In this document: positions 3,935 through 62,112 of the stretch, piece by piece | How the letters are laid out: each line of letters opens with the position of its first letter | How positions within the stretch are numbered: the stretch's first letter is position 1 | NCBI GenBank assembly: GCA_963924555.1 | Contig: OZ004584.1 | Span: 682,001 to 746,000, forward strand | DNA from: Crambe crambe | Lineage: Eukaryota > Porifera > Demospongiae > Poecilosclerida > Crambeidae | Reading direction: 5' to 3' | DNA: 64,000 bases | Made by a program: the position numbers and the translations under genes | The notes under the pieces: model-generated | What the model saw: the letters and a program-made list of their open reading frames with translations, nothing else | Told to the model about the DNA's origin: nothing | Databases searched by the model: none

Positions 3935-6900
3935 ATGAACACGATGGATCTTCAAATGGAAGTATCTCTCCTGATCAAAAGATTCCCTGAAAGATCACTG
4001 GAAGACTTGGGACCTCTCATCAAAGGTAATAGTTTGCTTTGCACGAGATTATTAATACAGAACTATCATGATCAAGATTATTACCTAGCTACAAAGATTT
4101 CATGACAGTGATTCTTGTTTTTGCTTTTGAAGATTTCTTCTGTGCTCGGAGTGAGAAACCTGGTATATATTATGGAGGACGGCTGTTTGTGACTCAAAAG
4201 ATGCTTGTCTTTGTGTCGACAAAGTAAGTCTTTATTCATTCATCAGAGTTAATTGGATCGTTACATATGAAGCCACTTTGATGGTTCAACAGTATTCAAA
4301 AGGTTCAAAGATTGAATACATAATACAAACCACCATCTTATTCAAAGAGCCAAATAGAACTATTCACATAGAACAAGGATAGCTTTGGCAAACTTCAAAA
4401 TGTCCTTCTGATTTTTTCTCACAATGTACGTACATTTTTTAGTTTGGACTCGAAAGCACACGACTGTTGCATTCCCATAAAGGATATCACCATGACTACC
4501 ACTATTCACAGACGCATCATCTCTTCACTTGAGGTGCAGTGGACCAAAAGAAAGGTAACCTTTGCTGTCTGATTGTTCTTAAATTGCATACAGAATCTCT
4601 GATGTCCTTTTCCTTCTATAGAATTGCTTCACGAATTTCTACGACTTGAAATCTGTTGAAAGGACACTGAGAGAAGTTCTTTCACCAGAGAAAGTCACAG
4701 TAAAGACATCAGGTGAGTACAAGTGTAGGGTTAGGTATATATAATTAATTACTCACTTTGAAATTCTTGTAGGATCTCTGAAGAAACGGGTGAGGAGGAT
4801 AGCAAGTTTCCCTATTAAAGAACCATCCCACACTTCATCTTCGCAGTCTCTCAAACCTAAGGTGTGTGTCACATAATCATGTCGCATGCTGCATTGCACA
4901 GGGGATCTGACGCAGGACCAAATTAATGTCCAGGCTAAACTGCAGCAGTTGGCCGACCATTTTCCTGTTGATCTGACACTGGTGGTATAAAGAAGTATAG
5001 CAAGATAGCAAGTGTTTGAAATCAGTATCTAATGCCTTCTGTTGTAGTTGGCCCTGTATGCATCATTATGCTCTGGCATAGATTTAATTTATTGAGTCTC
5101 ACACTCTAATATGTACGTACTTTGGTTAGGCAGTTCCAAATGTTTAACGGATTTTTTCTCCTTTCTTATAAGCAGGCAGGACAAAATAAACTTAAACATA
5201 CGTAAACTACCTCAGTATACTACAGTGGCGTAGGAAGATGATTTTGAATAGGGGGGCCACCTAAGTAATAGTCAAGACCCACGCCTATTTACTTGGGGGG
5301 GGGGGGGGGGGGGGAGGGGGGCACTAATGACTAGTTTTTAGAAAAGAATCAAACTCCAAAGTAATTTATTCTTTGTTGGTTTACAACATGGCTAATTCTT
5401 CGTGTATAGGCCTACATAGTTGTTCAATTGACATTCAGTCATAGTACTTGTTAAATAGCTAAGTTTTCATTTGATGAAGGGAAGAAAAAGAGTGTTCTGC
5501 TGTGGCTGAAATGTCAAGTATAATCTAATCAGTTTATCAAATATGCCTTTGTAGATTTCACTTTTATTACAGCTGTGAAGTATCATGCAGTGTAGTATAG
5601 TAGCTATAGCAATTATGCAATCAATAATAAGGGGGGCCCTGCCCCCTGTCTGAAAATAATAGGGGGGGCCCTGGCCCCTGTGGCCCCCCCTGTTCCTACG
5701 CCAGTGTACTATGCATATACTGTAATGGTATCTCAGTATACTATGCATCATACATCTCTTCGAGTTTTGTATGGTCATGTATTCTAGTATACCAAGATAA
5801 ACAGCAGTATTCAAAGATAAACAGCAGTATCATTATAGTATACAAAGATAAACAGCAGTATACTGAGGATATGCAAGTTTAATTCTTTCGAAATAGGGCA
5901 ATGACTGTATATCTCTCCTCCCTTCTACAGCTTGAACCTTGCCCGTACTTCACTAAATGTGGTTTCTGCCCAAGGGGTGTGGTTTGTAAATTGGACCACA
6001 CCTTCCAAACAGACCAAGAGACTGACGTCGTTGCAGGCCAAGACCCCAAAACTGCCTCTAAAGATGCTGATCTTTATTCCACTAACAACACAAGCTCTGA
6101 TTCAGACTCCATCAGCTTCAAAAGGTCACCAATGAAAAAGCCTCACGTTCAACCAATGGCTGAATCAAGAGTGTCTGATTCTGATGACACTGTGAAATAC
6201 CTTCGTAGTATTTCTTCACCAATATTCATTGCAGACTCGAAGTCTGAAACAAAGAAATCATCAAGCGATGAAAGAGAAATATCTGACCAATATCATTTAA
6301 CGTCCAAGGACTTAATCCCAACCACAGATGAAAGCAGTAGCAGCAACTCCAGCTCAAACTTCAAACCTGTAGCCAAAGAACTAACCTTGCCAGAATCATT
6401 CAACTTTAGCACCCAGCTCTCCCACACCTCATCAAGCTCGAATCCTAGCGAAGAGTTCAGAACACCTCCAAGTGATTCTGCTGCTGGACTCTCTTTGCTG
6501 AATAGTGCCAAGAATGTTTTCGTGTTTTCCGCTTCATCTCCAACTTCACCCCCAAAGGGGAAAAGAAAAGACGCCATAGTGGACTTCGTTTTGCCGAAGA
6601 TGGATGACAGAGGGGTAGTGGGAAAGGAGGAGGGGGAGGAGGGGGCTTATCGGTCTGGCAGTGGGGTCGGAGCCAAGGGCAGGGGAGATGCAGCCAGTAA
6701 GGAGATGGAGTTGCTCATTCAGCAACTGGAGTTGGGATCTGATGATGTGAGTTCCGTTTTGTTGTTGTTTTTTCTTGATTTTTGTTGTTTTTTTTTGCTG
6801 TCTTATCTACAGAATAGTCATGTACAGGAATTCCTTTTAAGGAAGCTCTTTTTTTTTTTTTTACAAGGGGTCTGGTTCCAATTGCCCCCTTGATTACTAA

Positions 6901-25894: not shown

Positions 25895-25958
25895 ATGAGC
25901 TTCTAATTGCAATTTACTCAGATAACGGTTGAACACAAGGGCTACAATTTTATCGAAC

Positions 25959-27197
25959 ATGCTGAAAAGATGTCGCTTCCTACCACTATCTTTAAATCAT
26001 TTTATTCGTCCAATGTCCGATGGAACTGATGGAACTGATGAGCCTCACTATACATCAGACGCACAGCCTTCAAAAGAGAGCATTAGGCTCTCTCAGTATC
26101 AATGGCAACCAGCTAATATTTGGTTCAAGAATACAACTCTGCTGCACCCAAACGATGAACAGGATATTGAAAGACAGGCATCCACTGATGAAGAAAATGC
26201 AAAGGAAAAAAGGAAGAAAAAGGCCAACAATAAAGGTCTCACTCCATTCAGCAGTGTTCAAGCTAGTGACATGAAGAAATTCAACACAATACCACAAGGA
26301 CGTGGAACAGTATTAGCTGTTATCGACAGTGGTATTAATGCACAGCATAAAGCATTTGCAAAACCTGGCAAGATAATCGATGCAGTGAATTTCAAAAAAG
26401 ATGGACAAAGTTGCCAAGATGAAACTGGTCATGGTACTGAGTGTGCTGGTATAGCTTGTGGCTTGCCTTTTACATTTAAGATTAAAGGAGAAGAAGAGCA
26501 AACTTTAAGGTCAATAGCCCCAGAAGCAAAATTGATGGTCCTTAAAGTCGCAGACAAAAATGGATATTGTAACACCAGTATTTGTAGAGCAATTGAGTAC
26601 ATCATTCAACATAACAAGAAACAAGAGAAAGAGAAAGTTAATGTCATATCTTTATCTTTTGGCTCACATAAATTCAATGCAGATCTAGCAATGAAAATCC
26701 AACATGCCATCACCAACAATATAATTGTCGTAAGTGCTGCATCTAATCATGGGGCTTCCATAATCAACCCTATCAGCTATCCTGGTAAATTGGGGCATGT
26801 CATTTGTGTTGGAGCCTGCAATGAACGAGGAAAACCTACTGACTTCACTCCAGAGGGACGTGAAATTGACTGTTTGGAACTTGGAGAAAATGTTTGGGTA
26901 CCAACATTTGATGGAGAGCAAAGCATCAGATTGTGTCAAGGGACATCATATTCAGCACCAATAGTTGCTGCCTGCATTTGCCTCATAATCGAAGATATCA
27001 GAAATCTTGCTGATGCTTACAACATTCCTGATCTGTTGGAGAAGTTCCATAACGTTTGGTGCATGAGAGAAATCCTAAAGATGATGGCAGTAAAGCAAGG
27101 ACATCACGACAGAGAAAGAGGGTATGGGAGACTGAACCCTACATTATTTTTCGAAAAGATACCTGAAGAAAAGTTGCGCATACTTCTAAATATTTAA
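25959..27197 (+). CDS. Subtilisin-like serine protease (peptidase S8), intact copy 1
   Basis: Intronless ORF of 412 aa from the ATG at 25959. It has a full S8 catalytic set: Asp123 (VIDSG), His158 (GHGTECAG), oxyanion Asn263 (ASNHG) and Ser330 (GTSYSAP). A ~110-residue N-terminal region rich in Lys/Glu precedes the catalytic domain, and no clear cleavable signal peptide is seen. There is no P-domain or other C-terminal module, so it is shorter than proprotein convertases. It is the best-preserved plus-strand member of a local family: a disabled copy at 28.2 kb, fragments at 27.5, 31.2 and 32.5 kb, and an intact inverted copy at 58.2-59.4 kb. Lack of introns next to intron-rich genes could mean retroposition, horizontal acquisition or spread with repeats. 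Substrate unknown. Confidence 0.92.
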   Translation: MLKRCRFLPLSLNHFIRPMSDGTDGTDEPHYTSDAQPSKESIRLSQYQWQPANIWFKNTTLLHPNDEQDIERQASTDEENAKEKRKKKANNKGLTPFSSVQASDMKKFNTIPQGRGTVLAVIDSGINAQHKAFAKPGKIIDAVNFKKDGQSCQDETGHGTECAGIACGLPFTFKIKGEEEQTLRSIAPEAKLMVLKVADKNGYCNTSICRAIEYIIQHNKKQEKEKVNVISLSFGSHKFNADLAMKIQHAITNNIIVVSAASNHGASIINPISYPGKLGHVICVGACNERGKPTDFTPEGREIDCLELGENVWVPTFDGEQSIRLCQGTSYSAPIVAACICLIIEDIRNLADAYNIPDLLEKFHNVWCMREILKMMAVKQGHHDRERGYGRLNPTLFFEKIPEEKLRILLNI

Positions 27198-28200: not shown

Positions 28201-29320
28201 ATGCTGAAAATTATGCGCTTCCTACCGCTGTCTTTAAACCGTCCAATATTCATTACAAGCAATGGAAAAAACAAGCCCCGCTACACATCAGATGCACAGA
28301 CTTCAAATGATAGCATTAGGCTCTCTCAGTATCAATGGCAACCAGCTAATATTTGGTTCAAGAATACAACTCTGCTGCACCCAAACGATGAACAGGATAT
28401 TGAAAGACAGGCATCCACTGATGAAGAAGAAAATGTAAAGGAAAAAGGCCAACAATAAAGGTCTCACTCCATTCAGCAATGTTCAAGCCAGTGACATGAA
28501 GAAATTCAACACATTACCACAAGGACGTGGAACAGTATTAGCTGTTATCGACAGCGGTATTTATGCACAGCATAAAGCATTTACAAAACCTGGCAAGATA
28601 ATCGATGCAGTGAATTTCAAAAAAGATGGACAAAGTTGCCAAGATGAAACTGGTCATGATACTGAGTGTGCTGGTATAGCTTGTGGCTTGCCTTTTACAT
28701 TGAAGATTGAAGGAGAAGAGAAATCATTCAAGTCAATAGCCCCAAAAGCAAATTGATGGTCCTTAAAGTTGCTGATAAAAATGGATATTGTCACACCAGT
28801 ATTTGTAAAGCAATTGAGTACATCATTCAACATAACAAGAAGTAAGACAAAGAGAAAGTTGATGTCATATCTTTATCACTTGGCTCTTCAGAATTCGATG
28901 CAGAACTAGCAATGAAAATTCAACACGCCATTACCAACAATATAATTATTGTGAGTGCTGTATCTAATGAAAGAGCTTCCATAATCAACCCTATTGCCTA
29001 TCCTAGTAGGTTGGGACATGCCATTTGTGTTGGAGCTTGCAATGAACAAGGAAAACTTACTGTCTTCACTCCAGAGGGACGTGAAATTGACTGTTTGGAA
29101 CTTGGAGAGAATGTTTGGGTACCAACAATTGATGGAGAGCGAAGCATTGAATCACGTCAAGGGACATCATATTCAGCACCAATAGTTGCCGCCTGCATTT
29201 GCCTCATAATCTGAAGACATCAGAAATCTTGCTGATGCTTATGGCATTCCTGATCTGTTGGAGAAGTTGCATAACATTTGGTGCATGAGGGAGATCCTAA
29301 AGATGATGGCAGTAAGTCCT
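28201..29320 (+). pseudogene. Disabled subtilase copy 2
   Basis: Colinear with copy 1 but broken several times: a deletion in the Lys-rich linker shifts frame and hits a stop at ~28458, a one-base deletion near 28750 ends the second open segment, a TAA occurs near 28843, and a one-base insertion near 29207 shifts frame again. His is kept, but the motif reads GHDTE instead of GHGTE. Homology stops at ~29317, before the C-terminus. The TATA promoter is retained, so it may be transcribed. Confidence 0.9.
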
Positions 29321-31147: not shown

Positions 31148-31190
31148 ATGAGCTCTGATTGCAATTTACTCAGATGCAATTTTATCGAAC

Positions 31191-31634
31191 ATGCTGAAAA
31201 GACATTACATCATGCGCTTCCTACCACTGTCTTTATATCGTTTTATTCGTCCGATGTCCAGTGCAAGTTTAAAAAATGAGCCTCGCTATACATCAGATGC
31301 ACAACCTTCAAATGATAGCATTATGCTCTCTCGGTATCAATGGCAACCAGCTAAGACTTGGTTCAAGAGTACAAATCTGCTGCACCTAAACAATGAACAG
31401 GATACTGAAACACAGGTATCCACCAATGAAGAAGAAGAAAAAAGGAAGAAAATGGCAATTTCCAACAATAAAGGTCTCACTCCATTCAGCAATGTTCAAG
31501 CTAGTGGCATGAAGAAATTCAACGCAATACCACAAGGACATGGAGCCCCAAAAGCAAAATTAATGATGCTTATTTGTTTGTTTGTTTGTCTGTTTATACT
31601 TTATGAGGTATATATTGAACTTGATGGATCATAA
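31191..31634 (+). pseudogene. Subtilase copy 3: N-terminus only, with internal deletion
   Basis: The ORF follows the family to IPQGHGAPKAKL. The deletion joins IPQGRG directly to the later PKAKLM, removing Asp and His. It then enters unrelated sequence (LICLFVCLFILYE) that also occurs next to the RAG1-like fragment at 61.4 kb. The promoter is retained, so a ~147-aa chimeric protein is possible but has no catalytic site. Confidence 0.8.
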
Positions 31635-31697
31635 TTATCTAGCAGTGCATGGATATTATAATACTGATCCATTACTAATATTTATTATTATTTATAA

Positions 31698-31935: not shown

Positions 31936-32526
31936 TTACATGTATATACATGTTAAATAAATTAATAAATAATCAAAGCGCCTTTCTTCCCTGCGTACCA
32001 CAGAACTTTGCTGCCATGCTTCACTGCCTTGTTCCAGGCCACATTCTAAGAATGGTGGAAATGCATGTGGTGTCCTAGTTTCATCTACTCTGTTGGTAAC
32101 ACACTCTCTGATTAATGATGTACTTTGCAATCCTTATGTGACACCATGACCATGTCAACTCATTGCGAAATTTCCTTTGTAATTGTTGACAGAGGGAGGG
32201 GGGAGGAGGAGGAGGAATCAGAGGGTAGCCAAACCACTCAAATTGTGATCAGGAAGCATCAAATTTGGAGAATTCCATCACTTCATTATGATATATAATG
32301 TATACACTTTTTATTGGACTGTTGGGAGAACCCTTACTTAATGATCCGTACATAATTGTCAACTCTGACACTACCAAATATCGTGCAATGTCACTGTACA
32401 AAAGTAGCTACTGTAACAGTATCTATGGTCAGATGGTAAACAAGCTACCCTAAACACCAGGCTGTATCTAGTATCACTATAATTTATAATTGGATTTTAG
32501 GCATTAATTTAATTCATGATTGCATT

Positions 32527-33039
32527 ATGCGCTTCCTACTGCTCTCTTTAAACATCCAATGTCCAGTGCAAGTGATAGACAAAACGAGCCTCGCTAAACA
32601 TCAGATGCACAAATTTCAAATGATATATAGCATTAGGCTTTCTCAGTATCAATGGCAACCAGCTAATATTTGGTTCAAGAGTACAAATCTGCTGCACCTA
32701 AACAATGAACAGGATACTGAAACACAGGTATCCACCAATGAAGAAGAAGAAAAAAGGAAGAAAATGGCAATTTCCAACAATAAAGGTCTCACTCCATTCA
32801 GCAATGTTCAAGCTAGTGGCATGAAGAAATTCAACGCAATACCACAAGGACATGGAGCCCCAAAAGCAGAATTAATGAAAGAGATCCAAAAGGAAAGGGG
32901 TGAAGTACGATCCACCAATTTAAAATCAAAATCATGGCTTCCACATTCTGAAGATTGTGAAATTTGTTTGACTGTGTCAGGTGGTGGGAAGCCTAAAAGA
33001 AGGAAAGTAGCATTAGAAGTGAAAGGGCGACCAAGATAA
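32527..33039 (+). pseudogene. Chimera: subtilase N-terminal fragment fused to a RAG1-like segment
   Basis: One open frame of 170 aa. The first ~115 residues follow subtilase copy 3, including the same internal junction (GHGAPKAEL). The rest (WLPHSEDCEICLTV, then KPKRRK) matches the RAG1 region just before its RING finger (W-x-PH-x3-C-x-IC followed by a basic stretch). The frame stops at 33037-33039; the RING part resumes in the +1 frame. Whether it is expressed is unknown. Confidence 0.72.
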
Positions 33040-33040
33040 C

Positions 33041-33505
33041 ATGAATAGATCGATAATGACCAGAGTAGCTGAAATCGATCCACCCCAATTTGTGAATTTC
33101 CAACTACAACCCTCCTATTTCCTTCCCAATTCCATGCTGAATGATTTGCTCTGTTTGAGCTGTTCCTGCATTCCGAATCAACCACTGGAAATAGCAACTT
33201 GCCGGCACTATAATAATATATGTGTACCTTGTATTGTCAGCAGTTGTGAAAGTGGTAGCTCTCTTCTCTGTAACTGCAATGGAAGGTCTATACTGCCTCA
33301 TCACCTGTGCATTCCATCTCCAGTTGTGATGAAAGTATTCAGTAGCCTTTTGGTGAGGTGTAAGAATGACTGTAGAGAAGTGATGCAACTTAAGGATCTG
33401 AAGCTGCATATTACATCAAACTGCACCCATGTTGAAATTCCATCTCCCTCAAAGATCACTGTCAACCATCTCTTGCACACCTCAGACATCCCTACTCAAT
33501 CTTGA
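33041..33505 (+). pseudogene. RAG1 N-terminal-like RING and zinc finger segment (N-RAG)
   Basis: 154-aa frame. Cys/His spacing follows the RAG1 RING (CLSCSCIPNQPLEIATCRH, CVPCI, CNCNGR) and the adjacent C2H2-type finger (LVRCKNDCREVMQLKDLKLH...C). It ends with IPSPSKITVNHLL. The RAG1 core (nonamer binding, DDE) is absent. It is continuous with the preceding frame if one frame shift near 33030 is allowed. Known N-RAG sequences in molluscs and echinoderms likewise lack the core. Called a fragment because of the frame break and missing 5' zinc motif, which lies in part at 61.5 kb. Confidence 0.75.
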
Positions 33506-33925
33506 ATGGAAAAACAAGCAATAGGCTTACTAGTTGATAAATTGATGCCCACCAATGGATTCATTAGTTGTAGGTGGAAAGGTAAGGCACTAAAATTAAT
33601 TCGTTAACCAATTCTATCTTCAAAATTACAATTTACTAGCCGATATCAGTAGTACGTGTGACCACACCCCGAATAGATTCAAGTGAAGCCTCCACACTGT
33701 TAAAAATTCAGGGTTACGATAACCCCAAAATTGGAGTTCCCACGACTGGGCAAATTAAACCCTTATCATTGGGTAACTGTTACCCCTCTGAGGTGTAATG
33801 TAAGTACACCACTGTGGAGTCATGTCAACTCTTTCAAAGTAACAAAAACTCTTTCAACAAAATTAATTTTCAAAATCCAGAGCAAATAAACAATAATAAT
33901 TAGATAAAGTTAACCATGAATACAG

Positions 33926-36900
33926 CTACTGCAAATTAGAACACAGAGTCAATACTGATGTAGGAATTTTACTATTGTCTTTCAATCCTATTACAAAATG
34001 TTGAAGAAATATGTACAGAGCATACATGCTCTTAGGGTATTCCATATTCAACACATAATCTATAACAGCATCCAAAAGGTTCTCACAGGAATACATGAAA
34101 ACACCTTCCACAATCAAATGATACGAATCTTCTGCAGCTAATATATATGGCTCACTCTGACCATAAGCAAGGGAAACTTCTTCGATGTTACAGCATGTCT
34201 ACAACAACAATAATAACAATAATAGTATAAGGGAAAAAGCATTTCGTGAAATGAAAAAAGATGTAGGGATGACCACTGCACAAAAAAGTAAGGAAACAAG
34301 AAGGATGGAATCTTTGTTCTGTATATCCAGCCAACAATCCCTACATATACGTCGGGTAGCTTCAGATTATAGTGTAGTAATGTACGTACATGTAGGGATT
34401 GTTGGCTGGATATACAGAACAAAGATTCCATCCTTCTTGTTTCCTTACTTTTTTGTGCAGTGGTCATCCCTACATCTTTTTTCATTTCACGAAATGCTTT
34501 TTCCCTTACTTGTTCCTGGTCTTTTTTTCCTCTCTTTTATGGTTTTAGCTATGTATAGAGTTCATTCTTCTATGTGTATGCAGGGACAGATGAAAGAAGA
34601 ATAGTTCTCCAATAGCATACCAGCCCAATCACTATCAACGAGTCAAGGTGGAGGTAGAAGATGCTGAAATAGAGTCTACCTTGTTGAATCTAAATCCCCG
34701 AGTCGATACAGTAGTCTATCATCATCATCACTATTCTAGCTACATATACCTATACCTAGCTAGCTAGCTAGAGGCAGCTGAATAATATTATAATTTCGAA
34801 TAATTGGATATCAAATACATGCGCATGCGTATTATAGAAAAGATGGCTTCCTAATTGAATTAGTCGAGTGCTGTGCTCCTTAGTGTCTCCTTTTTCATCG
34901 ACTCTTTCGAGGATCAACGAGTAGAAAAGATCGTAGTTCGTAGAATTTGGAGTGGATTTGTCCAGAAATCATAGCTGTAGCTTGAGTGGTTCGAGAGATA
35001 TGGTTGTCTAAGAAGAATAATAAGAAGAAGAATAATAATAACAAGTAAGGGAAAAAGCATTTCGTGAAATGAAAAAAAGATGTAGGGATGACCACTGCTC
35101 AAAAAAGTAAGGAAACAAGAAGGATGGAAATGGGATCAATCTTTGTTCTGTATATCCAGCCAACAATCCCTACATATACACACATTACTACACTATAATC
35201 TGAAGTTACCTGACGTATATGTAGGGATTGTTGGCTGGATATACAGAACAAAGATTGATCCCATTTCCATCCTTCTTGTTTCCTTACTTTTTTGAGCAGT
35301 GGTCATCCCTACATCTTTTTTTCATTTCACGAAATGCTTTTTCCCTTACTTGTTCCTGGTCTTTTTTCCTCTCTTTTATGGTTTTAGCTATGATTAGAGT
35401 TCATTCTTCTATGTGTATGCAGGGACAGATGAAAGAAGTTCTCCAATAGCATACCAGCCCAATCATTTATCGAGTCAAGGTGTTGTGTTGTTGAGCCGTA
35501 CTTGGAGGTCGAAGATGCTGAAATAGAGTCTACCGCGGTGAATCTAAATCCTCGAATCGATACAGTAGCCTATCATCATCATTATCCAGAGCTAGAGCTA
35601 GCTAGCTAGCTAGCTAGAGACAGCTGAGTAATATTATGATTTCGAATAATTGGATATTGAAATACATGCGCATGCGTATTATAGAAAAGATGGCTTCCTA
35701 ATTGAATTAGTCGAGTGCTGTGCTCCATAGTGTCTCCTTTTTCATCGACTCTTTCGAGGATCAACGAGTAGAAAAGATCGTAGTTGGTAGAATTTGGAGT
35801 GGATTTGTCCAGAAATCATAGCTGTAGCTTGAGTGGTTCGAGAGATATGGTTGTCTAAGAAGAATAATAATAATAAGAAGAAGAATAATAATAATAATAA
35901 TAATAATAGAGAAGAAGAAGAATACAGCGATTTACCTGCTTGCCGTATTTCTGAAACGGTAAGCTCCCTGGTCCTGAAACTTGGTCTGCACATTGTAGTA
36001 GGCTCTAGTAGGCTGGATAATCATTCACAGTAGCTTTTGTTAGGTCTAAGTGGGGGAACTGGAATTTCACTTTTGTATTAGTCTATAGGCGGCGCGCGCG
36101 GCCGTCCGAGTCATCCCTACATAGAGAGTGCTACCGCACTCTCTGATAATAATAGAGAAGAAGAAGAATATAGCGATTTACCTGCTTGCCGTATTTCTGA
36201 AACGGTAAGCTCCCTGGTCCTGAAACTTGGTCTGCACATTGTAGTAGGCTCTAGTAGGCTGGATAATCATTCACAGTAGCTTTTGTTAGGTCTAAGTGGG
36301 GGAACTGGAATTTCACTTTTGTATTAGTCTATAGGCGGCGCGCGCGGCCGTCCGAGTCATCCCTACATAGAGAGTGCTACCGCACTCTCTGATACTGACT
36401 TGACGTTGTATGCATAATTCATAATACGTACATGTTCATAATAGTAAAGAATGCTTTTCTTATTTTTAGAAGACCTCGGATATAAGAAATGTTCCAAGAT
36501 GACAAGAGCCCTACCAACCTCACAATAATGAGATGACTCTGAAATAAGAATATAGATGATTGTATAAATAAATAGTGTATCTGTACGATAGATCCCCTTA
36601 TGCAGGAAGGGTCTCAAGGAATGAGTCAGTACCTTAGCATCATAATGATACATCCCTAGTTATGGAGGTGTTGGGAGTCCATTGAGACCCACTGCACAAG
36701 TGGTATGCAGATATTGTGTAAAAACAGGGCTTGCTCGGTTCAAATTTCTTATGTAGCCATGTTAATTGCCATGAACTATGTATCACTTACCAGTTAGCTT
36801 TTTGGTCAAACTATTACTCGCTTTGGATTCTTTATCACCATATAACAAAATTTTCGGCACCCATACAGTATTCCAATCATTTACAAGAGTGGGAACATCG

Positions 36901-39591: not shown

Positions 39592-42500
39592 TGTCAACAT
39601 CCGGAACTATTTTTCAATGCCCACTCTGTGCCAGAGTTTCAAGCTACCGAATTTCAATTTCTATTGCCTCACATACGCTTGGTACATTCTATAAGGCCTG
39701 GTTTCTCCCTGCAATGTTCGATAGAAAATTGTACCCGACATTTTACAAATATGAAAACATACGCTAACCACATTTATAGTGATCATGAATGCCTCCCCAA
39801 ACTGCTAGAGACTACCAATCTACTAGCACTCATTACGATCCTGGTGAAATACAGGTTTGTGAGGAGGAAGAAACCCAAGCAGATCAAGAAAATGCTAGCA
39901 TTAATTCTAGAGGCTTACCCCCTCAGTTTGAGTCCATAGCAGCATGCTGGATTTTAAAAATAAGGGAATGTTGCAAGCTAACTCAGTCCACTACTGAAGA
40001 AATTATAGAGAGAGTTACTGATTTAAATCGGTACATTTTGTCAGAAGTATTTTTGGCAGTTAAGTCAGCCTTAACTGAAGCAAGGCTAGACATGGGCAAA
40101 GTTCCAAAGCTGAAAGAAATTTTATCCAAATGGAAAATTTGGTAGGCCATTTAGAAGTGTTGAAAATTCATATATTGCAAAGAAAAGCTTGGATTTGTGG
40201 TATGTTACACACACAGTGTATGTATACCCAAAAATGTGTCATAATGCCTGAGCTGGGCACTGTGAGTAAATGGAAAGGGCATGGCAGAAAAAGAAAATAT
40301 TTGCAAACAAAGGAAGTAATGATGTATGTGCCATTATTAGAACCGATTCAATCCCTCCTACTAGATGATTCTATTTGTAAACAGGTGTGTATGTATGCCC
40401 CTCAACCTATATATATACTAACATACTCTTATTATAGCTCCAAAGGTCTCGTACCGATAGTACTGATGTAATAGCTGACTTCTGTGATGGGCAATTTATA
40501 AAACAAAGTCTTTTTTTCTTCAGCACTACAATTGAACCTGATGATGTAGAGATATGCAATCCGTTAGGTTCCAAGCGGAAGAAGCACAAATTAGGTAACC
40601 AAGCAAAAATTGATGAGATCACTAGCTTAATTACAACTATTTTAGAACAACCTGCCACCTACAATGAGATCTAAAATCAACCACATCAAATTACTTGCAA
40701 TAGTTAAACGAAAGTTCATTGACAAGTACTCTATGAATACAATCCTGAAGCCTATAATGGAGGACATAATGAAACTGGTACAATAGCTAATAGTCCTACT
40801 AAATCAAATGCCATATTTAACCCTTTCCCACAAACAGGAGAATGGAATACAGCTTTTATACAATGGACGAAAAACTATAGTACATGGAACTCTTGTTACA
40901 GTTTGTGCTGATAACCTTGGGAGTTGTGCAGTTGGAGGTTTCAAGGAAGGATCAATTGCTTATAGGTTCTTACTAAATATGAGGATATAAAACTGATTGG
41001 AAGTATCAATAAGCTGATGGTGGGTTCTAAATAGAACGGTCACATTATGTACACAACCCATATTCCCAATGTGACTACTTTTATTACATGTAATAGTGGG
41101 CTTTATTTAAAATATCAAATGTGTAGGCTCATGAAGACCAGTGTGACTTACGTACACCAGATGAACACAATAAACAGTGTACTGAAGTTGAACAGGATAC
41201 AACCAATTCTCTCTCAGTAGAATATGGAATTAATAGTACATGTATCCTAAATGGTTTGAAATATTTTCATACCTGTAATGGAGCACTCATACCAGACATA
41301 ATGCACGATGTGTTGGAAGGAGGATTGCAATACGAGGCCAAGTTGATGCTAAAAAGATTTGTGTATGAAGACAAGTGTTTTACACTGGATGAACTCAACT
41401 TTAGGCTCGAAAATTTTGATTACGGATACATGGACACCAAAAATAGACCCAGCCCAATTACTAGAGAAACACTGACAAATGATAGCAACTCACTCAAACA
41501 AAATGGTAAAATCTTCCCGACTCAATTCTGTCACATTGAAAAAATTATTATTTTTTGAAGCCTCTCAAATGTGGCTCCTCGGTCAGAGTTTACCGTTGTT
41601 GATCGGCTCTTTGGTGTCACCAGATGATGAGTACTGGAAGAATTTCTGTTTACCAACAGAAATTGAAGATGAATTTTCAAATTGGAAACTGCTCAAAACC
41701 AAATGCAGTCACAAACACGTGTGTTTGTAGCCTACGAGGCATCAGACAGCAAAACTAACCTGCATCTCTCCTTGGATGCATACAAGTCACAAGTTGATGA
41801 TTTAAAAAAGCTTGTATGGAGGTACATGCATAATAATAGTACCAGAAGAAAAGGTCTACAGTATATTATAGGAACTCATCAGGTGAAAACCAAATCACAT
41901 GTGTATTCCTATCAGGGGACTACGAGTTTCTTTGTAACTTGTATGGGTTATCAGGAGCAAGTGGTAAGGATATAAGTATATAGTCCTATTCCTTTCAAAT
42001 AATTATCAAAAAATGGGTAGGTCGCCACAATTGTCTCTGGTGCCTCATTAAAAGTGAAGATTTAAAAATCCCAATAGCCGAACGTGGTACCAGCACCAAA
42101 CGAACATTGGAAGGGATCAAGAAGGACTATTCCAACTTCCTTGCTGATGGTGGCAACATCAAGAGGGCCAAAGAATTTAACAATGTTATGGCATCACATA
42201 TCTTTAATATTGAGATCGAATCGGTACCATTACCAAATAATACATAGAGTAAAATACAAATAATATACTAACCTGTCACTTAGGTCTGTCTTCCTGGCTT
42301 ACACATCACTCTTGGTATCTTCTTTCGTCTCTTCACACTATTGGAGGATGAATGTCACGAGCTGGACATACAAATGGCCCTACACTCCTCAAAAGAAGAA
42401 GACTCACCTGGATATGCCAAGTACTGTGACTTGGTAAGGAAGGAAAGGGAGTTGCTGGATATAAAAGACAGCTTTGAACAACATCTGAAGTGGCTTGATC

Positions 42501-43417
42501 AGACTCTGATGCTTTGTGCCCTCAATGCCAGCAGTCCATCAGATCCATCAATCGTATCCGTAACCAAAGCCATCAAAGAGCATAAAGCAATGTTGGATGC
42601 CATAGTAAGTAGTCATACACCTAATAAAATTAAATATATACTCCCTCGATCATAAAGATAACAGAATTATCAGCACTAACAAAAAAGAAGAGCTTTTCAA
42701 GAAAGGATGGCCCTTTTTGTTTGGCACTGGATACAGCATTGATCTCATTCAATGTGCATAGGCAGGCCTATTATGGTGGAACATTTATTGGTAACCACGT
42801 GCATAGAACACTCAAGGTAAACTAAGTATGCACCTTCAAGCAGGTGTTAAAGATGTGTTTGTCAGCAGGAAGTAAATATTTCCACACTCTGCAATTCTGT
42901 TGTTGAGTTGGCCCAGGACAGATGCTCACAACTTCTACCAAAGGCACAATTCATTCAAAAAAACCTTTACTAAGGCATTCAGTTATTTTGCTAGATGTCA
43001 TTCAATATATGACAGCAGTAGGGTTCTGGAAGAGAAGGAAATAGACGAGCTTGGAAAGTAGGATGCCATGAATATACATTGTACAAACCTGTTTTAATTT
43101 CAATAGACTCTAGAATCAAAGACTTCATGGATTTCTACAGGGATTCATTTCCAAATGCGACAGTTCTGCCAAAAATGCACATGCTGGAAGACCACATGGT
43201 TCCGTTCCTGAAAAAATGGAGAGTTGGTTTAGGTTTTCTTGGGGAACAGGGAGCAGAGTCTATTCATGCTCATTTTAATGCCATCAAAAGGAGCTACATC
43301 AATATGCCCAACAGTGTGCAACGTCTGGAGTGCATAATGACAGAGCACTTTAGGCAGATATGTCCTATCAACACATTTAAATTACCTCAGCCTAAACCCA
43401 AACCAAAGGATGTCTAA
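39592..43417 (+). pseudogene. Decayed multi-exon transposon protein gene (C2H2 head, IMHDVLEG motif)
   Basis: Fragments in order follow a family common in cnidarian and sponge genomes: a C2H2-like start (FQCPLCAR, then LPHIRLVHSIRPGFSLQC and HIYSDH), a helical part (ACWILKIRECCKLTQST), WKGHGRKRKYLQ, DDVEICNPLGSKRKKHKL, PDIMHDVLEGGLQYEAKLML, ASQMWLLGQSLPLLIG, VGRHNCLWCLI, and a C-terminal exon (VLPKMHMLEDHMVPFLKKW, GEQGAESIHAHFN). Introns with GT-AG ends remain (e.g. 41504-41562, restoring N-ASQMW). Frame shifts near 39630 and 39790 and missing linkers show decay. I cannot name the superfamily with certainty. No terminal repeats were found. Confidence 0.65.
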
Positions 43418-43440
43418 CACTGAACCAAATAACATGCATA

Positions 43441-43954
43441 TACCGTAATCGTATAAATTTTCGATGGGGTTTTATTTTCGTTTTTTTCGTAGTCGATCAG
43501 AATCCTCGAAAATAATAAACGAAGTCTTAGTACTATGACGTCATATATGACGACGATGCGCATGCGTGTGCGATGCGATATCGATAGCAGCTGGAAAAAA
43601 ACCTGGAGCAGATAGTCCGTGAGACGAAAGTATCATGCTTCATTACCGGGATCATGGCCGTTACCTGTCTCTCTTCTACAACGAAGCGTCTCGCCTTCCG
43701 TAGCAGTCTAGATTTTAGTCTGGCGTCGCCAGCCTAGCCTTCTTTTGGGGGGACTATCTAGATTTCTCTGTAGTAGCCACGAATATAGCCATCATCACTC
43801 GGCCCCAGCAGCAGGCAATGATATAGCTATTATGCGCATGCATTATTTTCCATGTGCTTGCTACGAAAATTAGACCTGCGGAAATTTTTTATTATAGGAA
43901 CAGCTCCGGAAATCACGAAATTTTAAACCTCCGAAAATTTATACGATTACGGTA
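43441..43954. mobile_element. Non-autonomous transposon with 23-bp perfect TIR
   Basis: Both ends carry taccgtaatcgtataaattt (then tcg) in inverted orientation, flanked by TA/TATA. 514 bp, no transposase. The interior contains the palindromic unit 'tagtctggcgtcgccagcc', which also occurs at ~57390. Confidence 0.85.
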
Positions 43955-45320
43955 TACATATGGCTGTAACTCTCTGGAAAAAATTATAAGTAAAATAATA
44001 CTGATATTACCTAGAAGCAGGATGATGGGATTTTCTTTTTCACTGCTATTCTCCTGTCTACAAACTTTCTGGATGGTATAAACAAGAGTTAGACTCCTTC
44101 AAAGTTCAAGCGCGTGTAAATATTCTCACACTTGTTCTTTTTCCCCCGTTTTTTCACCAGTTTGTAGAGCTACTCTTCTTCTCTATTGCCACGTGGCTGG
44201 TAAAGTACTATGACCCCGGAAATGGTCACTAAGTGCATAGTGCTAAACCAGGAAACACCGTTGCTATGGTATTACTAGGCATAGTGAAAAAATTTCATCA
44301 TAGGTGACTTCCCACTTCCTGAAATTTGGCAGGAAGTCAGATAAAGGACTGAAGATACTGTGGAGGCAAGGAAAAAGAAGTGGATAAAAATAATTTTTTT
44401 ACCTAAGGCTAGTTTAAACGCGCATATCTCAAAAATTTATCTTGCGTGAAGTGCCCCCTTTTCCTAAATTGCTTTAAAGTAGGCAAGCGCTCGAGTTGAA
44501 GTGAGCTACCTCACCCGGAACTTATTTCACATCCTACGTGCCCAAATTTCAATCTTCAATTACGGAGGATGTATGAGCATAATGCGCGGAAATAAGGGAA
44601 ATTCCCCACACAACAATAAAAATTCATATTGATGATTTCTACTGAATACAAAGTAGCTACACAGATATTTAGCTAGCTACAGATAGGAAGAGGTTGTGGT
44701 AGGAGCCATCCAACTTCATATGTCAGAAGATCCAGATATGGAGGTGCTGGATGAATTCTATGTCTCCTTCAACCCCAAGACAGTAGTCAAACACAGCCCA
44801 GATCCTACCAGTGTCTAGATTCCAACTCAGGCTAACACCACTTCCACAGGAATCAACCAATACAGCAGAGATAGGATCATAAAACTTAAAAGTACTTTTA
44901 AAACTACTGATGTACAAACATCTATCTACCCAAACTTTACCTGATCATTATTCAGAACTTGTTCCATATCTAGCATGCCTCAGATAACCCAAGCGCTCAA
45001 AGATAACAACGTAGTAAAGCTAAGTCTACTTCTTCTCCACACAGCTGCTACACGATCGAGGTGAGAAAAATTGAATGATGTCATCGCGTTATACGGACTT
45101 ACGTAAGGATTTACGGAGCATTGGGTATTGACCGGAAGCTCAATGTTTGGACGCCGTTTATTGCAAAACGCTTATTCAATCTTTCTCTGAGGTGATTCAC
45201 TTCAAGCGCTTATAGCTGCGCGGTGGTTTAAGATTTAGCCTCAAGCGTAGTATCGGTGAAATTCTAAGGTAATGAGCTATAGCGTGGTATTAATAACTCC
45301 ATTTTAAATTTTTGCGTGAA
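43955..45320. other. Intergenic, no gene seen
   Basis: No conserved frame is recognised. One minus-strand frame at 44917-44723 (64 aa) has no family I know. The phrase 'gcgtgaagtgcccccttttc' occurs twice (~44446 and ~45316), a sign of further repeat sequence. Confidence 0.5.
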
Positions 45321-47219: not shown

Positions 47220-47394
47220 CTATGATTTCATTTACAAGTTACTGTCCATGCGCATAATTATTGGGATCAAAACACCCGTGATGTAGGGATTGTTTTCATA
47301 CGAGCTAGGCTGCAGTACATTATATAGCCCAGCTAGATTTTAGGCTATCCCTACTTAACCTTTTTATTTAGAAGAAATTTTTTGTGCTCACTTG
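47220..47394 (-). mobile_element. Partial Helitron-like element, head-to-tail with the next
   Basis: Its minus-strand start (CAAGTGAGCAC at 47394) abuts the CTGA end of the neighbouring element at 47395, a head-to-tail tandem. It contains 'tgtagggat' in inverted pairs. Confidence 0.5.
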
Positions 47395-53478: not shown

Positions 53479-53553
53479 CACCGGAACAATAGCCACTGCG
53501 TAGTAATTATCAATTTTACGCGCTGAGGTCTGTTACGCCCCTAGCTACCTGAG

Positions 53554-55017
53554 ATGGAGTTGGATGGTAGTCTCGTTCAGAACAAAGGGTCTCACCAGAA
53601 GAAGGAGCCGGAAGCCAGAAGATGCCACCATGTAAACTTGAAGGTTCTCTTTCTGTTCTCGTTGTGTGTGCTTCTCTTCTATGGCATCAGTAACTGCACA
53701 CAAGGTGTGAAGAACTTCATTTTCACACACATTCCATCTGCTACAGCATCAAAAAAGGGAGGAGCTGCTTCCAACATGGACAATTACATGGATCTGAACT
53801 TTAATCTCCCATGGTTGGGTGGCTTAAGTGCTGATCACTATTCAGGCAGTGATTGGATCCAATTTCTGATCAATTTCACAGCAGTAAATTTGGATCCAAC
53901 CGAGCCGATATTCATAGTGTGTGCTGATGATAACTTCAAAGAAGCCCTTCTCAACTGGTTGATAATCTCTCTCTCATCTGCTTCACAAAATCAGCCACCG
54001 AAAAATATTTTAGCGGTGACGAATACACCCGAGATATGCTCCCTGTTGGAAGAACACAAAGTTAAAGTTTCCTGTTTACTGATGTCAGTGCATGATATCA
54101 GTATCAGTATCAACAAAAAGATCAGCATATTCAGAAGGTTACTGGTCATTCGTTTATCAGTGATGCGTGTTCTTAACCACATGGGTTACGATGTAGTTAA
54201 CATGGATTCCGATGCCATAATGCTGAGGAATTTGGTTCCAGTTCTGAAGCAGCATGGGAACAGTGATGTGGTTGGGACTTTTGGAGGAAAGCGGCCGCTT
54301 CAGTTATTTCAGAAGTGGGGGGTTGTTGTGTGCATGGGAGCAATACTAATAAGAAGTTCCTCAAGAACTGGTAAATAATTATATATAGCTATACAGTGCA
54401 CCAAGTAAAGGACACTTTGGGATCAGCCACTTTGTCCTTTGTAGAGAGGTTATCCTCTTCTTGGAGGTTAAACAAGTACCTAATTTAGTGTCCTTGTTGG
54501 GAGGTTGTCCTTTTCTTGGAGGGAAGTTCCACTGTATAATTAATTCTTCAACTGCAGAGCGTCCAGACCAAGTCCAGGAGAAGTTTGTTGATTTTTTCCC
54601 CTTTTTGCAGAGTTTCTGTGGGAGAGTATGCGCAGGATCGATGAATTCAATGATCAGATACTGTTCAACAAGGCCCTAGATGCAGCCAACATCACGTGGA
54701 AAAGATCATCCACCGAACAAACCCCAACTGACTTAAATATGACAACACACTGGGAAGGTCATTGTTCCAACGGCTTGAAAGTGACACTCCTCCCTCAGGT
54801 AGTAGCTTGTCGCTCCATTTGGTGCGTCAGGGAGATAAAGGATCGAGTGTATGTCTGGCATCATGGCCAGAACAAGCACAAGTTTAGCAACATGAACAGC
54901 AAAGCTCAGGAAGACAGAGTGTGGCTCTTGAGAAGTGATTGGTCCAGTATTGATGGCAAAGGAGTTCATCTCAAAGGACAGTTATGGTTATCAGGAATAA
55001 CTAACCATACCCTATAG
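53554..55017 (+). CDS. Type II membrane nucleotide-diphospho-sugar transferase, paralogue 1
   Basis: Two exons, 53554-54370 and 54611-55017 (phase 1), 407 aa. A short cytosolic tail is followed by a signal-anchor (VLFLFSLCVLLFYGI), a stem, then the catalytic domain. A DxD motif (NMDSDAIML, Asp218/Asp220) sits in the context RLSVMRVLNHMGYDVVNMD, typical of the nucleotide-diphospho-sugar transferase family (PF03407). The C-terminal exon has GLKVTLLPQVVACRS and VWHHGQNKHKF. Predicted Golgi, lumenal catalysis; sugar donor and acceptor unknown. It is in tandem with a second copy 550 bp downstream with the same intron position. Confidence 0.85.
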
Positions 55018-55200: not shown

Positions 55201-55565
55201 TAATCAATTTTGAAATGTAGCTACAGTACATATAGCTATAAACTTCTTTAGCTATCTATCAGATATTTAAGTGGCTAGTTCCAATATCCACGGATGGTCA
55301 CATCATGCACGTCGAGCATTCTAGAGCTATTAAAAGAATATGCTATAGGGGGATATTACTATTCAGTATTATAATAATTCTCATAATAATTAATATGGTT
55401 TCGTTCAAGCAATGATTTGGCTTCAGTGTTTAATTCCTCCATTGCTATGCTAAGCTGAGTTAGCTGTGTAGCATAACAATGGAGAAGTTAGTTAGATAGA
55501 GAGACTAGACATCCCCAAGCCCAAATTTTTGAAAGACTTGCTCATTAGCAGTAATAATAGTTACA

Positions 55566-57346
55566 ATGTCTAGTTTGAAAGGAGTTTGTAGTATGAGGAG
55601 ATGTCGTGGAGCTTGTCATCAATGGTACGTAATCAGCACAGTTCTGTTTGCATTCTTTCTAGTGATATACAGCATCAATCAAGGAACGGGCACTTGCTAT
55701 TTACTTCCATCTCAATCCAATTGTGGCATCACAATCGATACAAGAGACAGTAGAAATGGTCATTCTCTCACCAGCCAATCGTATAAGGAGATTCTGCACG
55801 ATGTCAACAAGCAAGAAAAAGTAAAGTCTACCATTTCCAGTAGTTTAAAGGAGAAGCAGAGTCTTATCAGAGAGCACAATGTTAAAGATCCGACTCTCAT
55901 AAACCACCAAAGAATCCCAAATGGAGTAGTTAACCGTAACCTTAACACTGAACTTAACACTAACCCTAACACTGATCTTAATACTGGTTTTGATTTCAAT
56001 TTCAGACTCCCTTGGTCTGACAGCATGGAGAAAGCATATCGCTACCAAAATACTCACTGGATTCAATTCCTGACGAAATTCACCAAAAAAGTGAATCCAA
56101 GTGAACCCATTCTGATCGCATGTGCTGATATCAAATTCAAAGAAGCTCTGCTCAATTGGCTGATTTCAGTGCTGGTCCTCCAGAAGGAACCTCCTAAGAA
56201 TATTCTCATTGTGACCAGCAGGGCTAGCATCTGTTCTCTATTGGAGCGTCATGATCTGAGCATCGACTGTTTGACACTGTCAGCTAATGACATCATCTTT
56301 AAATGGAAACACAAACTGAGAAATGGCAGGCCTGTTAAAGCCAGTGCTTTCCAAGAGTTGCTAGTTATTCGTTTGTCTGTAATGCGAGTCCTCAACCATA
56401 TGGGGTATGATGTCATCAACATGGATTCCGATGCCATAATGCTCAAGAATCCCATTCCGGTTCTGGAATCGTACAAGGACAGTGACGTAGTGGGGACCTT
56501 TGGAGGAAGCTTACCCCATGGATTGTTCAGGAGGTGGGGGGTCGTGGTTTGCATGGGAGCAATATTGATACGCAGTACTCCCAAAACAGGTACAACAGCT
56601 AGAGCTAACAAAGAGCAGATCCACAGGGAAACCTCCAAATAAGGGAAACCTCCAAATAAGGGAAATCTCCAAATAAGGGACACTATCCTTTTGTAGAGAG
56701 GTTATCCTCTTTTTGGAGGCTATTGTGTATAATATTGATCGAGTGTGGGTACTTTTAGATTTTCTGTTGTAGAGAATATTTTGAGTTGCAAATTGTGCCC
56801 AAAAAATAATAGTGTTCACTCTTCAACTTTAGGATTAATCACACACAATAAGTTCAATAATTTCAATAAAAGCTATTATAGTTAGCATGTTTTAATGAGA
56901 TAGCTAGCCTTTTCCTTCTTATTGCAGAGCTACTCTGGGAAAGGCTGAGTAACAATAATACCAACAAAATGGATGACCAAGTTCTGTTCAATAAAGCACT
57001 AGAAAAAGCAGGGATCAAGTGGAAGAAAGTCCCAGCTGCTCACACCACTTCTGTCAATGAAAACACCACTACATTCTGGCAAGGTCGTACCTCCAGTGGA
57101 TTAAAAGTGACTCTGCTTCCACAGGAAGCGGCTTGTCGTGGCATTTCATGTGTCCAAGAGATGAAGGAGAATGCTTATATCTGGCACCATGGCAGGAATA
57201 AACACAAGTTTCAAATGATGAGCAGTAAAGCAGAGGAAGATGGGGTGTGGTTCCTCAGAAAGGACTGGGCCAGCATTGATGGGAGTCAAGCAAGGTTCAA
57301 AGGACTAGAATGGTTATTAAGGATATCGCTTCAGAAAATTAACTAG
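55566..57346 (+). CDS. Type II membrane nucleotide-diphospho-sugar transferase, paralogue 2
   Basis: Two exons, 55566-56589 and 56928-57346 (phase 1), 480 aa. Signal-anchor near residue 20-38 (WYVISTVLFAFFLVIYSI). The stem is longer than in paralogue 1 and includes Asn/Thr-rich short repeats (NTELNTNPNTDLNT) made from 'cttaacactaac'-type DNA repeats. DxD at Asp287/Asp289 in the same NMDSDAIML context. The second exon aligns throughout with paralogue 1 (SGLKVTLLPQEAACRG, WHHGRNKHKF). Tandem duplication with a divergent stem is clear; the activity is inferred from the family. Confidence 0.85.
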
Positions 57347-58171: not shown

Positions 58172-59428
58172 TTAGTAATCTTGCATGCCCGACCCTTTAC
58201 AATAAATATTTTGAAGTATGCGCAGCTTTTCTTCAGGCGTCTTTTTCAAAAATAATGTAGGGTCCAGTCTCCCATACCCTCTTTCTCTGTCGTGATGTCC
58301 TTGCTTTACTGCCATCAACTTTAGGATCTCCCTCATGCACCAAACGTTGTGCAACTTCTCCAACAGATCAGGAATGTTGTAAGCATCAGCAAGATTTCTG
58401 ATATCTTCGATTATGAGGCAAATGCAGGCAGCAACTATTGGTGTTGAATATGATGTTCCATGACATAATTTGACGCTTCGCTCTCCATCAATTGTTGGTG
58501 CTAAAACATTTTCCCCAAGTTCCAAACAGTCAATTTCACGTCCCTCTGGAGTGAAGTTAGTAGGTTTTCCATTTCTATTGCAGGCTCCAACACAAATGAC
58601 ATGCCCCAACTTACTAGGATAGGCAATAGGGTTGATTATGGAAGCTCCTTGATTAGATGCAGCACTTACGACAATTATATTGTTGGTAATGGCATGCTGA
58701 ATTTTCTTTGCTAGCTCTGCATCAAATTCTGAAGAGCCAAGTGATAAAGATATGACATCAACTTTCTCTTTACCTGGTTTACTGTTATGTCGAATGATGT
58801 ATTCAATTGCTTTACAAATACTGGTGTTATATATATCCCCGTTTTTATCAGCAACTTTAAGAATCATCAATTTTGCCTTTGGGGCTGCAGACTTATATTC
58901 TTGCATTTTCTCTTGAATCTTCAATTTAAAAGGCAAACCACAAGCAATGCCAGCACACTCAGTGCCATGACCTATTTCATCTTTGCAATCATATCCATCT
59001 CTTGCAAAATTCACTGCATCAATTATCTTGCCGGGTTTTGCAAATGCTTTATGCTGTGCATTAATACCGCTGTCAATAACAGCTATTACTGTTCCACGTC
59101 CTTGTGGTATTGTGTGGAATTTCTTGTCCCTAGCTTGAACATTGCTGAATGGAGTGAGACTTTTATTACTGGAAATCACATCCTTTCTCTTCCTTTTTGC
59201 TTTTACATTTTCTTCTTCATTGGTGGATGCCTGTGTTTCAGTATCCTGTTCATCGTTTGGGTGCAGCAGAGTTGTATTCTTGAACCAAATATTAGCTGGT
59301 TGCCATTGATACTGAGAGAGCATAATGCTATCATTTGAAGTCTGTGCATCTGATGTGTAGCGAGGCTCGTCACTTGCACTGGACATTGGATGAATAAAGC
59401 GATTTAAAGACAGCAGTAGGAAGCGCAT
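58172..59428 (-). CDS. Subtilisin-like serine protease (peptidase S8), intact inverted copy
   Basis: Intronless, 418 aa. Catalytic set intact: Asp119 (VIDSG), His154 (GHGTECAG), Asn259 (ASNQG) and Ser326 (GTSYSTP). Differs from copy 1 by many substitutions and a longer C-terminus (IYCKGSGMQDY). In parts (MSSAS, DTETQAS) it is closer to the fragments at 31.2 and 32.5 kb than to copy 1, so it may be nearer their source. No TATA context like that of copies 1-3 was found upstream; CG-rich sequence (cgcgcgcgcgtgaacg) lies ~80 bp before the start. Confidence 0.92.
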   Translation of the reverse strand: MRFLLLSLNRFIHPMSSASDEPRYTSDAQTSNDSIMLSQYQWQPANIWFKNTTLLHPNDEQDTETQASTNEEENVKAKRKRKDVISSNKSLTPFSNVQARDKKFHTIPQGRGTVIAVIDSGINAQHKAFAKPGKIIDAVNFARDGYDCKDEIGHGTECAGIACGLPFKLKIQEKMQEYKSAAPKAKLMILKVADKNGDIYNTSICKAIEYIIRHNSKPGKEKVDVISLSLGSSEFDAELAKKIQHAITNNIIVVSAASNQGASIINPIAYPSKLGHVICVGACNRNGKPTNFTPEGREIDCLELGENVLAPTIDGERSVKLCHGTSYSTPIVAACICLIIEDIRNLADAYNIPDLLEKLHNVWCMREILKLMAVKQGHHDRERGYGRLDPTLFLKKTPEEKLRILQNIYCKGSGMQDY

Positions 59429-59585
59429 AATGATGAAAAATCAACTTTCAAGATATTACTAAACAACTGCAACTCGAAAGTCTTACCGCATAAATAAGCC
59501 CCGTTTCGCTTCGCGCGCGCGTGAACGGTGCCGGGTAGCCCAACCATAGATACTATGGCCCAACCATAGATATACTAGACTATTA

Positions 59586-61345: not shown

Positions 61346-61467
61346 CAATAATAAATAGCTATTAGTAATGGATCAGTATTATAATATCCATGCACTGCTA
61401 GATAATTATGATCCATCAAGTTCAATATATACCTCATAAAGTATAAACAGACAAACAAACAAACAAA

Positions 61468-61666
61468 TAAGCATCATTCAAGTAGCAGCTGTTGCACACC
61501 ACTGGAGGGTAGATATTGTCAGATTCAGAAGAGACCTCCAGGCTGAGCACTGATAAGAGGATACCCTTACATGCAGCACTATATTTATTATGTTCATATC
61601 CTTTAGGCTTCTTTCCACACACCCTACATCTATTTTTAATGCACTTTTTATGATGCTCCATAGACA
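61468..61666 (-). pseudogene. RAG1-like N-terminal zinc-binding fragment
   Basis: Open from a good acceptor (tttttttcag) at 61667. Encodes CIKNRCRVCGKKPKGYEHNK and, after a spacer, DNIYPPVVCNSCY. This follows the RAG1 zinc motif CxxCG-x(n)-H ... D-x-I-x-P-x2-x-C-x2-C that precedes the W-x-PH-x3-CxxC segment found at 32.9 kb. It then runs into 'gatgcttatttgtttg', shared with the 31.56-kb chimera, and on to the PRPF40 exon copy. Confidence 0.7.
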
Positions 61667-61669
61667 CTG

Positions 61670-62112
61670 AAAAAAAAATTATAAGTTAAATATTTTATTT
61701 ATAGTATTATAATTTAGACCTTCTTCATTTGTTTTATCAGTGCAATACCTGAATTATTATTGTTAGGTCCAGACCACAAGGAATTTCAAGACGGTGCCTT
61801 CTCCAATGAATACCGATGTTTCATAGATAGTTGCTATGGTATCGATGCGCAGTTGTGTTTAGCGTAAAAACCACTTATGCGCGTGGTTTAGACCGGGTTT
61901 TCCCTTTGTTGTTTGACCTTTTGGGGCTATCTCTAGGGCTTCACAGCAACCGAAAAGGTCACAAAGCCCCTAGCAACTACTGCCCATCGTTGTTATGCAT
62001 AATGTAATTTAATTTTGTTAGACCGGAAATGTTGAACATGGAATTTAATTAAGCGAATTGCCCAGGCAAAACACCCGTGAGGCACTTCCGGAACTCCAGC
62101 GCAAGGGTCTGG
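61670..62112. other. Intergenic, no gene seen
   Basis: No recognised coding sequence. Contains local inverted words (gaccttttggggct / ggtcacaaagcccc). Confidence 0.5.

Follow-up and report, generated by a model that had tools for sequence, protein, structure and literature searches.

A RAG1 N-terminus-like segment very probably belonging to the transposase gene of a rearranged Chapaev-type DNA transposon

We conclude that the RAG1-like segment in the stretch of DNA analysed here (the window, 64,000 nucleotides, C6:682001-746000 in a genome assembly of 143 Mb and 119 contigs) almost certainly comes from a Chapaev-type cut-and-paste DNA transposon, in whose transposase gene it is exon 1; the copy is broken and rearranged. 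The original prediction was of a RAG1 N-terminus (N-RAG) carrying the non-core module of RAG1 in order, i.e., the N-terminal zinc motifs, a basic stretch, the RING and the next zinc finger, and standing free of any recombinase core. The homology to this module is borne out, and the free-standing state is not. This removes the wrong inference that an early animal lineage had a RAG1 N-terminus but no recombinase core with it. Instead, the genome has at least 35 loci with the RAG1 N-terminal module, some about 99% alike, and nearly all of them lie beside a Chapaev transposase.

The two adjacent frames from which the prediction started are present in the window as described, as confirmed by a check of the sequence and its open reading frames. 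The segment, placed originally at 32878-33505, is there, with limits that need correction: its RAG1-like part begins at 32876 and exon 1 ends at 33581. This exon is damaged, with its coding sequence split across two frames and interrupted by one in-frame stop. Taken alone, frame 1 matches Pfam RAG1_imp_bd (PF12560) at E 0.0016 (18.6 bits, below the 23.3-bit cut-off) and finds RAG1 in PDB at E 0.93, behind an unrelated chain at 0.69. Frame 2 has no RING or zf-RAG1 match in Pfam at E ≤ 10, and its AlphaFold model, with a mean pLDDT of 33.4, is too poor for use. The profile matches expected of both frames are thus obtained with their relatives from the same genome and not with the window frames themselves. 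A search of the genome with RAG1_imp_bd gave at least 29 matches (best E 8.6e-10), and the open frame with exon 1 of a copy at 8.97 Mb on contig C6 reaches E 2.6e-10. At least 41 matches to frame 2 were found at E ≤ 1, and six of them, elsewhere in the genome, align with no fewer than 144 of its 160 residues at 85-99% identity. Because these same-genome relatives match RAG1_imp_bd strongly, the RAG1-like identity of the window frames is beyond doubt.

At the level of the family, we used a profile of seven members. Against PDB, this profile is collinear with residues 101-379 of the RAG1 chain (E 1.2e-24), and the top 14 of the 49 distinct sequences listed are RAG1, followed by TRAF6 at 9.2e-8. 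The alternative of a generic RING and TRAF-type zinc-finger gene, with a chance likeness to RAG1, has a negligible probability. It is in keeping with the matches of TRAF6 and other RING proteins to the profile, with the result of frame 2 alone (by phmmer against PDB, LNX2 at E 0.016 but not RAG1), and with the RING part of the profile, where RAG1 (1rmd, 1.3e-9) is ahead of TRAF6 by only about 70-fold. It is contradicted by the profile scores over the whole N-terminus and by the match above cut-off to PF12560, which lies upstream of the RING. Furthermore, the chain 21wb, a RAG1 N-terminus that lacks the RING, is matched at E 1.8e-15, which means that the lead of RAG1 over TRAF6 is due to the N-terminal zinc region and that the profiles score more than a generic RING. 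Sequence comparison hence supports zinc motifs specific to RAG1.

Among the seven rows of the alignment, Pfam matches at E ≤ 0.1 were found to RAG1_imp_bd in six, to zf-C3HC4 in three and to zf-AD in three. The zf-RAG1 family (PF10426) is absent from the 11 families matched by any of the rows at this threshold; despite this, the profile aligns with residues 18-112 of the 116 of 1rmd. The zf-AD (ZAD) matches fall in residues 1-80 of the alignment, where the first zinc motifs are, and this part matches PDB chain 7po9 (LD30467p) at E 0.0069. These matches make a relation of the RAG1/Chapa zinc domain to ZAD possible. No close relatives of the exon-1 protein were found among 9 pattern matches in viral_contigs and 81 in genome_contigs.

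The complete form of the element is found on the same contig as the window, at C6:8970550-8974782. This copy has 4,233 bp, the termini CACGGGTGTTTTG and CAAAACACCCGTG, and an ACCC/ACCC target duplication of 4 bp at its flanks. Over the 4.1-4.2 kb that can be aligned, it shares 99.3% identity with the copy on contig C21 and 99.2% with that on C12, and comparison of the copies shows that their likeness reaches far past the 32878-33505 segment. The window sequence at 32876-33581 is 96.8% identical to the complete element and 97.9-98.8% identical to the copies on C1 and C20. The same termini are found in the C6, C21 and C5 copies, and in C1 the first base is changed. Both ends could be read in five copies, two of which have matching target duplications (C6, and C21 with GAGG/GAGG), whereas those of C5, C1 and the window do not match; this count excludes C12, where the 5' end is missing, and C20, for which no ends were located in the stretches examined.

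The gene of the complete copy was modeled from the genomic sequence as ten predicted exons, separated by introns of 50-60 bp that are GT..AG in nine of nine cases. The predicted protein has 971 residues without a stop, with the RAG1-like part in exon 1, and its residues 1-302 are collinear with the non-core N-terminus of RAG1. The C6 copy is the one copy found fully open, since C21 and C12 have a common frameshift in exon 1. In Pfam, the 971-residue protein matches RAG1_imp_bd at E 8.9e-9, above cut-off, and DUF1280 (PF06918) at E 2.0e-14 (54.2 bits, cut-off 25); one open frame by itself gives E 1.3e-14 with DUF1280. It has no match to the RAG1 core, PF12940, at E ≤ 1. The catalytic motifs are D490, D565, C584/C587 [C(2)C], GLH, H893/H898 [H(4)H], and E915 or E919. 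The second D precedes C(2)C by 19 residues; in H(4)H, the second H precedes the E of GAES by 21. In RAG1, the D-C(2)C and H(4)H-E spacings are similar. Since the transposase profile matched nothing in PDB at E ≤ 10, what we claim for the catalytic part and RAG1 is shared motifs only.

We assigned the element to Chapaev by its DUF1280 match, termini, target duplications and motifs, set against published descriptions of this group. According to the relevant section of one study, DUF1280 corresponds to Chapaev transposases and is grouped with RAG1 in clade II (PMC3985635). Another lists, in its account of these elements, target duplications of 3-4 bp, CAC/GTG termini, DDE, C(2)C, LH and H(4)H as marks of Chapaev (PMC4079192). 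Here we find inverted-repeat termini of the type 5'-CAC...GTG-3', a 4-bp target duplication, DDE with C(2)C, LH and H(4)H, and a DUF1280 transposase, as in Chapaev of the CMC group. The TWA target duplication of Chapaev3 is not what we observe, the matching duplications being 4 bp long, ACCC and GAGG. The architecture itself is not new. Chapaev transposases with Chapa and a RING are already known in other animals, with lancelet and starlet sea anemone named as hosts in the pertinent passage of Kapitonov and Koonin 2015 (PMC4411706), and, like the present element, they have a RAG1-like N-terminal zinc domain and a RING followed by a Chapaev-type DDE transposase. Our element adds the present genome as a further host. 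Among the matches listed in a search of titles and abstract starts in open-licence PubMed Central, which did not extend to Repbase, there was no report of a sponge Chapaev with a RAG1-like N-terminus. Because such Chapaev transposases were known, the segment is no evidence for a RAG1 N-terminus existing apart from any transposase, a question that the original prediction had raised.

The genome-wide distribution of the module bears on the same question. We grouped 37 of the 41 frame 2 matches and 23 of the 29 RAG1_imp_bd matches (taken up to E 0.05, with one at 0.048 also excluded) into 35 N-RAG loci. For comparison, two transposase queries supplied 38 of 43 and 47 of 86 matches, after exclusion of weak matches and second pieces. 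The genome search scores only the best candidates, and hence all locus counts are lower bounds. At 33 of the 35 loci, the 10 kb downstream contain a same-strand transposase match. By comparison, such matches are found upstream at 1/35 and on the opposite strand at 4/35. N-RAG loci are present elsewhere in the genome, yet nearly all of them are beside a transposase and are not core-less.

A core-less N-RAG gene, or an element like N-RAG-TP that carries a RAG1 N-terminus without any transposase, could explain why no RAG1 recombinase core (PF12940) was found in the genome, as had been predicted, although this search had no positive control and control genomes gave none either. It could also explain the two loci lacking a downstream transposase match (C1:7499391 and C3:1482162) and a 374-residue open frame at C17:3455274-3456305, which has the RING, the zinc finger and the C terminus of the transposase without the D-D part. 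We read this last frame as a product of internal deletion. The core-less reading is contradicted, for the window copy and those closely related to it, by the C6 gene, where predicted splicing joins exon 1 and the DUF1280/Chapaev DDE-type domain in one frame, by the 33 loci with a transposase downstream, and by the transposase remnants in the window itself; overall we consider it highly improbable.

The window copy of the Chapaev-type element is in pieces (Table 1). Of the predicted protein, residues 63-308 are matched at 32875-33604, residues 303-320 at 33640-33693, and residues 1-62 at 61661-61476 on the minus strand. A 5.9-kb segment, common to the C1, C20 and window copies (by direct comparison for C1 and the window, by inference for C20), occupies the place of the 625 bp of the complete element that encode residues ~321-495 and with them the first catalytic D. 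The transposase remnants that follow correspond to residues 496-958, in pieces, at 41663-43375. A further insertion lies between 44298 and 47225, and the terminal piece beyond it may come from a different copy. As the first catalytic D is missing and the element is interrupted, the window copy should be dead. Within the sequence inserted in this copy there are hairpins at 34228-34508 (125-nt arms, 99%) and 35040-35354 (140-nt arms, 100%), with the hairpin region repeated at a spacing of about 0.82-0.85 kb, and the tandem duplication at 35900-36391 is perfect.

Table 1. Pieces of the transposon copy and the adjoining gene fragment in the window
Feature	Position	Strand	Basis or likeness
Truncated subtilase gene piece, stretch before the catalytic domain; outside the element	32440..32875	+	58-67% to neighbouring copies, repeats D1/D2
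Rest of exon 1: W-x-PH-x3-CxxC, basic stretch, RING, following zinc finger	32876..33581	+	Protein match (see text)
Intron 1, GT..AG, 58 bp	33582..33639	+	Sequence; equal 58-bp intron in C6, C21 and C12 copies
Start of exon 2, PISVVRVTTPRIDSSEAS	33640..33694	+	100% to residues 303-320
Insertion with two long hairpins and 246-bp tandem duplication	34230..36391	+	Absent from C1 and C20 copies
Remainder (after 33695-34229) of the 5.9-kb segment	36392..41663	+	Replaces 625 bp of the C6 element
Transposase remnants: GDYEF (second D), CLWC [C(2)C], GLH, HMLEDH [H(4)H], GEQGAES (E)	41664..43442	+	98.7% to C6 element
3' non-coding part of the element	43953..44298	+	99.4% to C6 element 3843-4188
3' terminal piece with TIR CAAAACACCCGTG	47225..47280	+	92.9% to C6 element 4182-4233
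TIR and leader at the 5' end of the element, with the ~62 initial codons of exon 1	61478..62079	-	98.8% to C6 element 1-601
5' TIR CACGGGTGTTTTG	62067..62079	-	Exact match

The displacement of the 5' end has a likely origin in the neighbourhood of the break. Position 32876 is also the point where a copy of a subtilase gene breaks off, and the sequence that follows this point in a sister subtilase copy (31562-31686) is found inverted at 61354-61478, with 98% identity, adjoining the displaced 5' end. Because flipping 32876-61478 restores the subtilase copy and exon 1 together, there was apparently an inversion of ~28.6 kb, either biological or an assembly error. The part of frame 1 upstream of 32876 belongs to a truncated subtilase copy, and frame 1, judging from its neighbouring copies, is a piece of a subtilase gene fused by chance to exon 1. 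The 32440-32875 piece has no Pfam subtilase match; the full copies at 25926-27194 and 58175-59440 match Peptidase_S8 at E 1.3e-33 and 2.1e-34. Local subtilase genes and fragments are found on both strands (25926-27194, 28207-29315, 31152-31631, 32440-32878 and 58175-59440), and on the 115-kb contig C7 subtilase pieces recur three times at a spacing of ~40 kb.

Comparison with known systems shows where the likeness to RAG1 begins and ends. As in vertebrate RAG1 and RAG1L, the element encodes the non-core N-terminal zinc motifs and the RING dimerisation domain, collinear with RAG1 101-379. The relevant section of PMC12730594 gives D, D and E with C(2)C and H(4)H for RAG1, motifs found also in the catalytic part of the element, and describes C(2)C and H(3-4)H as common to CMC and Transib transposases. 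Unlike in RAG1, this catalytic part is DUF1280/Chapaev, with no match to PF12940. Transib and RAG produce 5-bp target duplications, according to the pertinent text of PMC8355894, whereas those of the element are of 4 bp, and Transib, as treated in the corresponding part of PMC7204232, lacks the RAG1-like N-terminus that the element has. N-RAG-TP of Aplysia (Panchin and Moroz 2008) is likewise a mobile element that encodes a RAG1-N-like protein. As summarized in PMC8355894, N-RAG-TP has RAG1-N-like sequence throughout and nothing else, in contrast with the present element, which has its own transposase in the same predicted gene.

These results could have consequences for the origin of RAG1. 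Should the host be a sponge, the architecture that joins a RAG1 N-terminus to Chapaev would have a wider known range, and trees built separately for the module and for the catalytic domain could be used to study where the RAG1 N-terminus came from. We tentatively suggest, as a possibility that we rate a little below even, that in this case the whole non-core module of RAG1 and a CMC-type transposase were already united outside Eumetazoa, or else the module was transferred horizontally to sponges. The RAG1 N-terminus would then have been taken from Chapaev-like transposases, or be shared with them by descent, and core-less N-RAG such as N-RAG-TP of Aplysia may be Chapaev minus its transposase. 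Outside Bilateria, RAG1L-RAG2L pairs are described from cnidarians, and Porifera are absent from the main text of the source (PMC7204232, in its relevant part).

How would such an element work? The transposase would bind the CAC...GTG ends, and the D-D-E residues around the C(2)C/H(4)H zinc site would cut and rejoin the DNA, resulting in cut-and-paste transposition at these ends by the D-D-E domain. By analogy with what is thought for RAG1, the RAG1-like zinc motifs and the RING could provide dimerisation, contacts with DNA or proteins, and perhaps ubiquitin-ligase activity.

We also considered how the copies have evolved. Between deep subfamilies, three pairs compared over the N-RAG exon (285-296 codons) have pN of 0.37-0.41 and pS of 0.75-0.78, near or past saturation, and two further pairs with the locus L008 (168-170 codons) have pN of 0.38-0.39 and pS of 0.70-0.86. 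The exon thus seems to be held under constraint at this depth. Among close pairs, the eight that yield a dN/dS value have 0.41-0.83, and one further pair is identical. These values fit an N-terminus kept by selection during transposon activity and decaying afterwards, and the copies that are ~99% alike point to recent movement. Contig C3 has 17 of the 35 N-RAG/Chapaev loci, against 2.4 expected from its length, all but one at 0.69-3.97 Mb, and this region is possibly an accumulation site of old transposons.

Some of these copies could have been domesticated, with the N-RAG exon now serving as a host RING protein, which we regard as very unlikely. The excess of loci on C3 and the constraint in deep pairs would agree with it, as would the lower frequency of C3 matches with in-match stops in the N-RAG search (5/22) than in the transposase-exon search (14/23). 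However, the contrast in stops is not clean, since there are introns within the span of the transposase query and frameshifts interrupt the matches. Moreover, the dN/dS of the close pairs is as expected for decay after insertion, and an active transposase lineage would also leave constraint between subfamilies.

Two loci with N-RAG and a transposase, C1:195846-199143 and C3:8868729-8872019, have identical scores for RAG1_imp_bd and for one of the two transposase queries. One is near the start of C1 and the other in the last megabase of C3, and the identity of their scores suggests a duplicated segment. Finally, the window has two related open frames, at 53545-54375 and 55533-56639, with matches to Nucleotid_trans (PF03407) at E 7e-6 and 5.4e-9.
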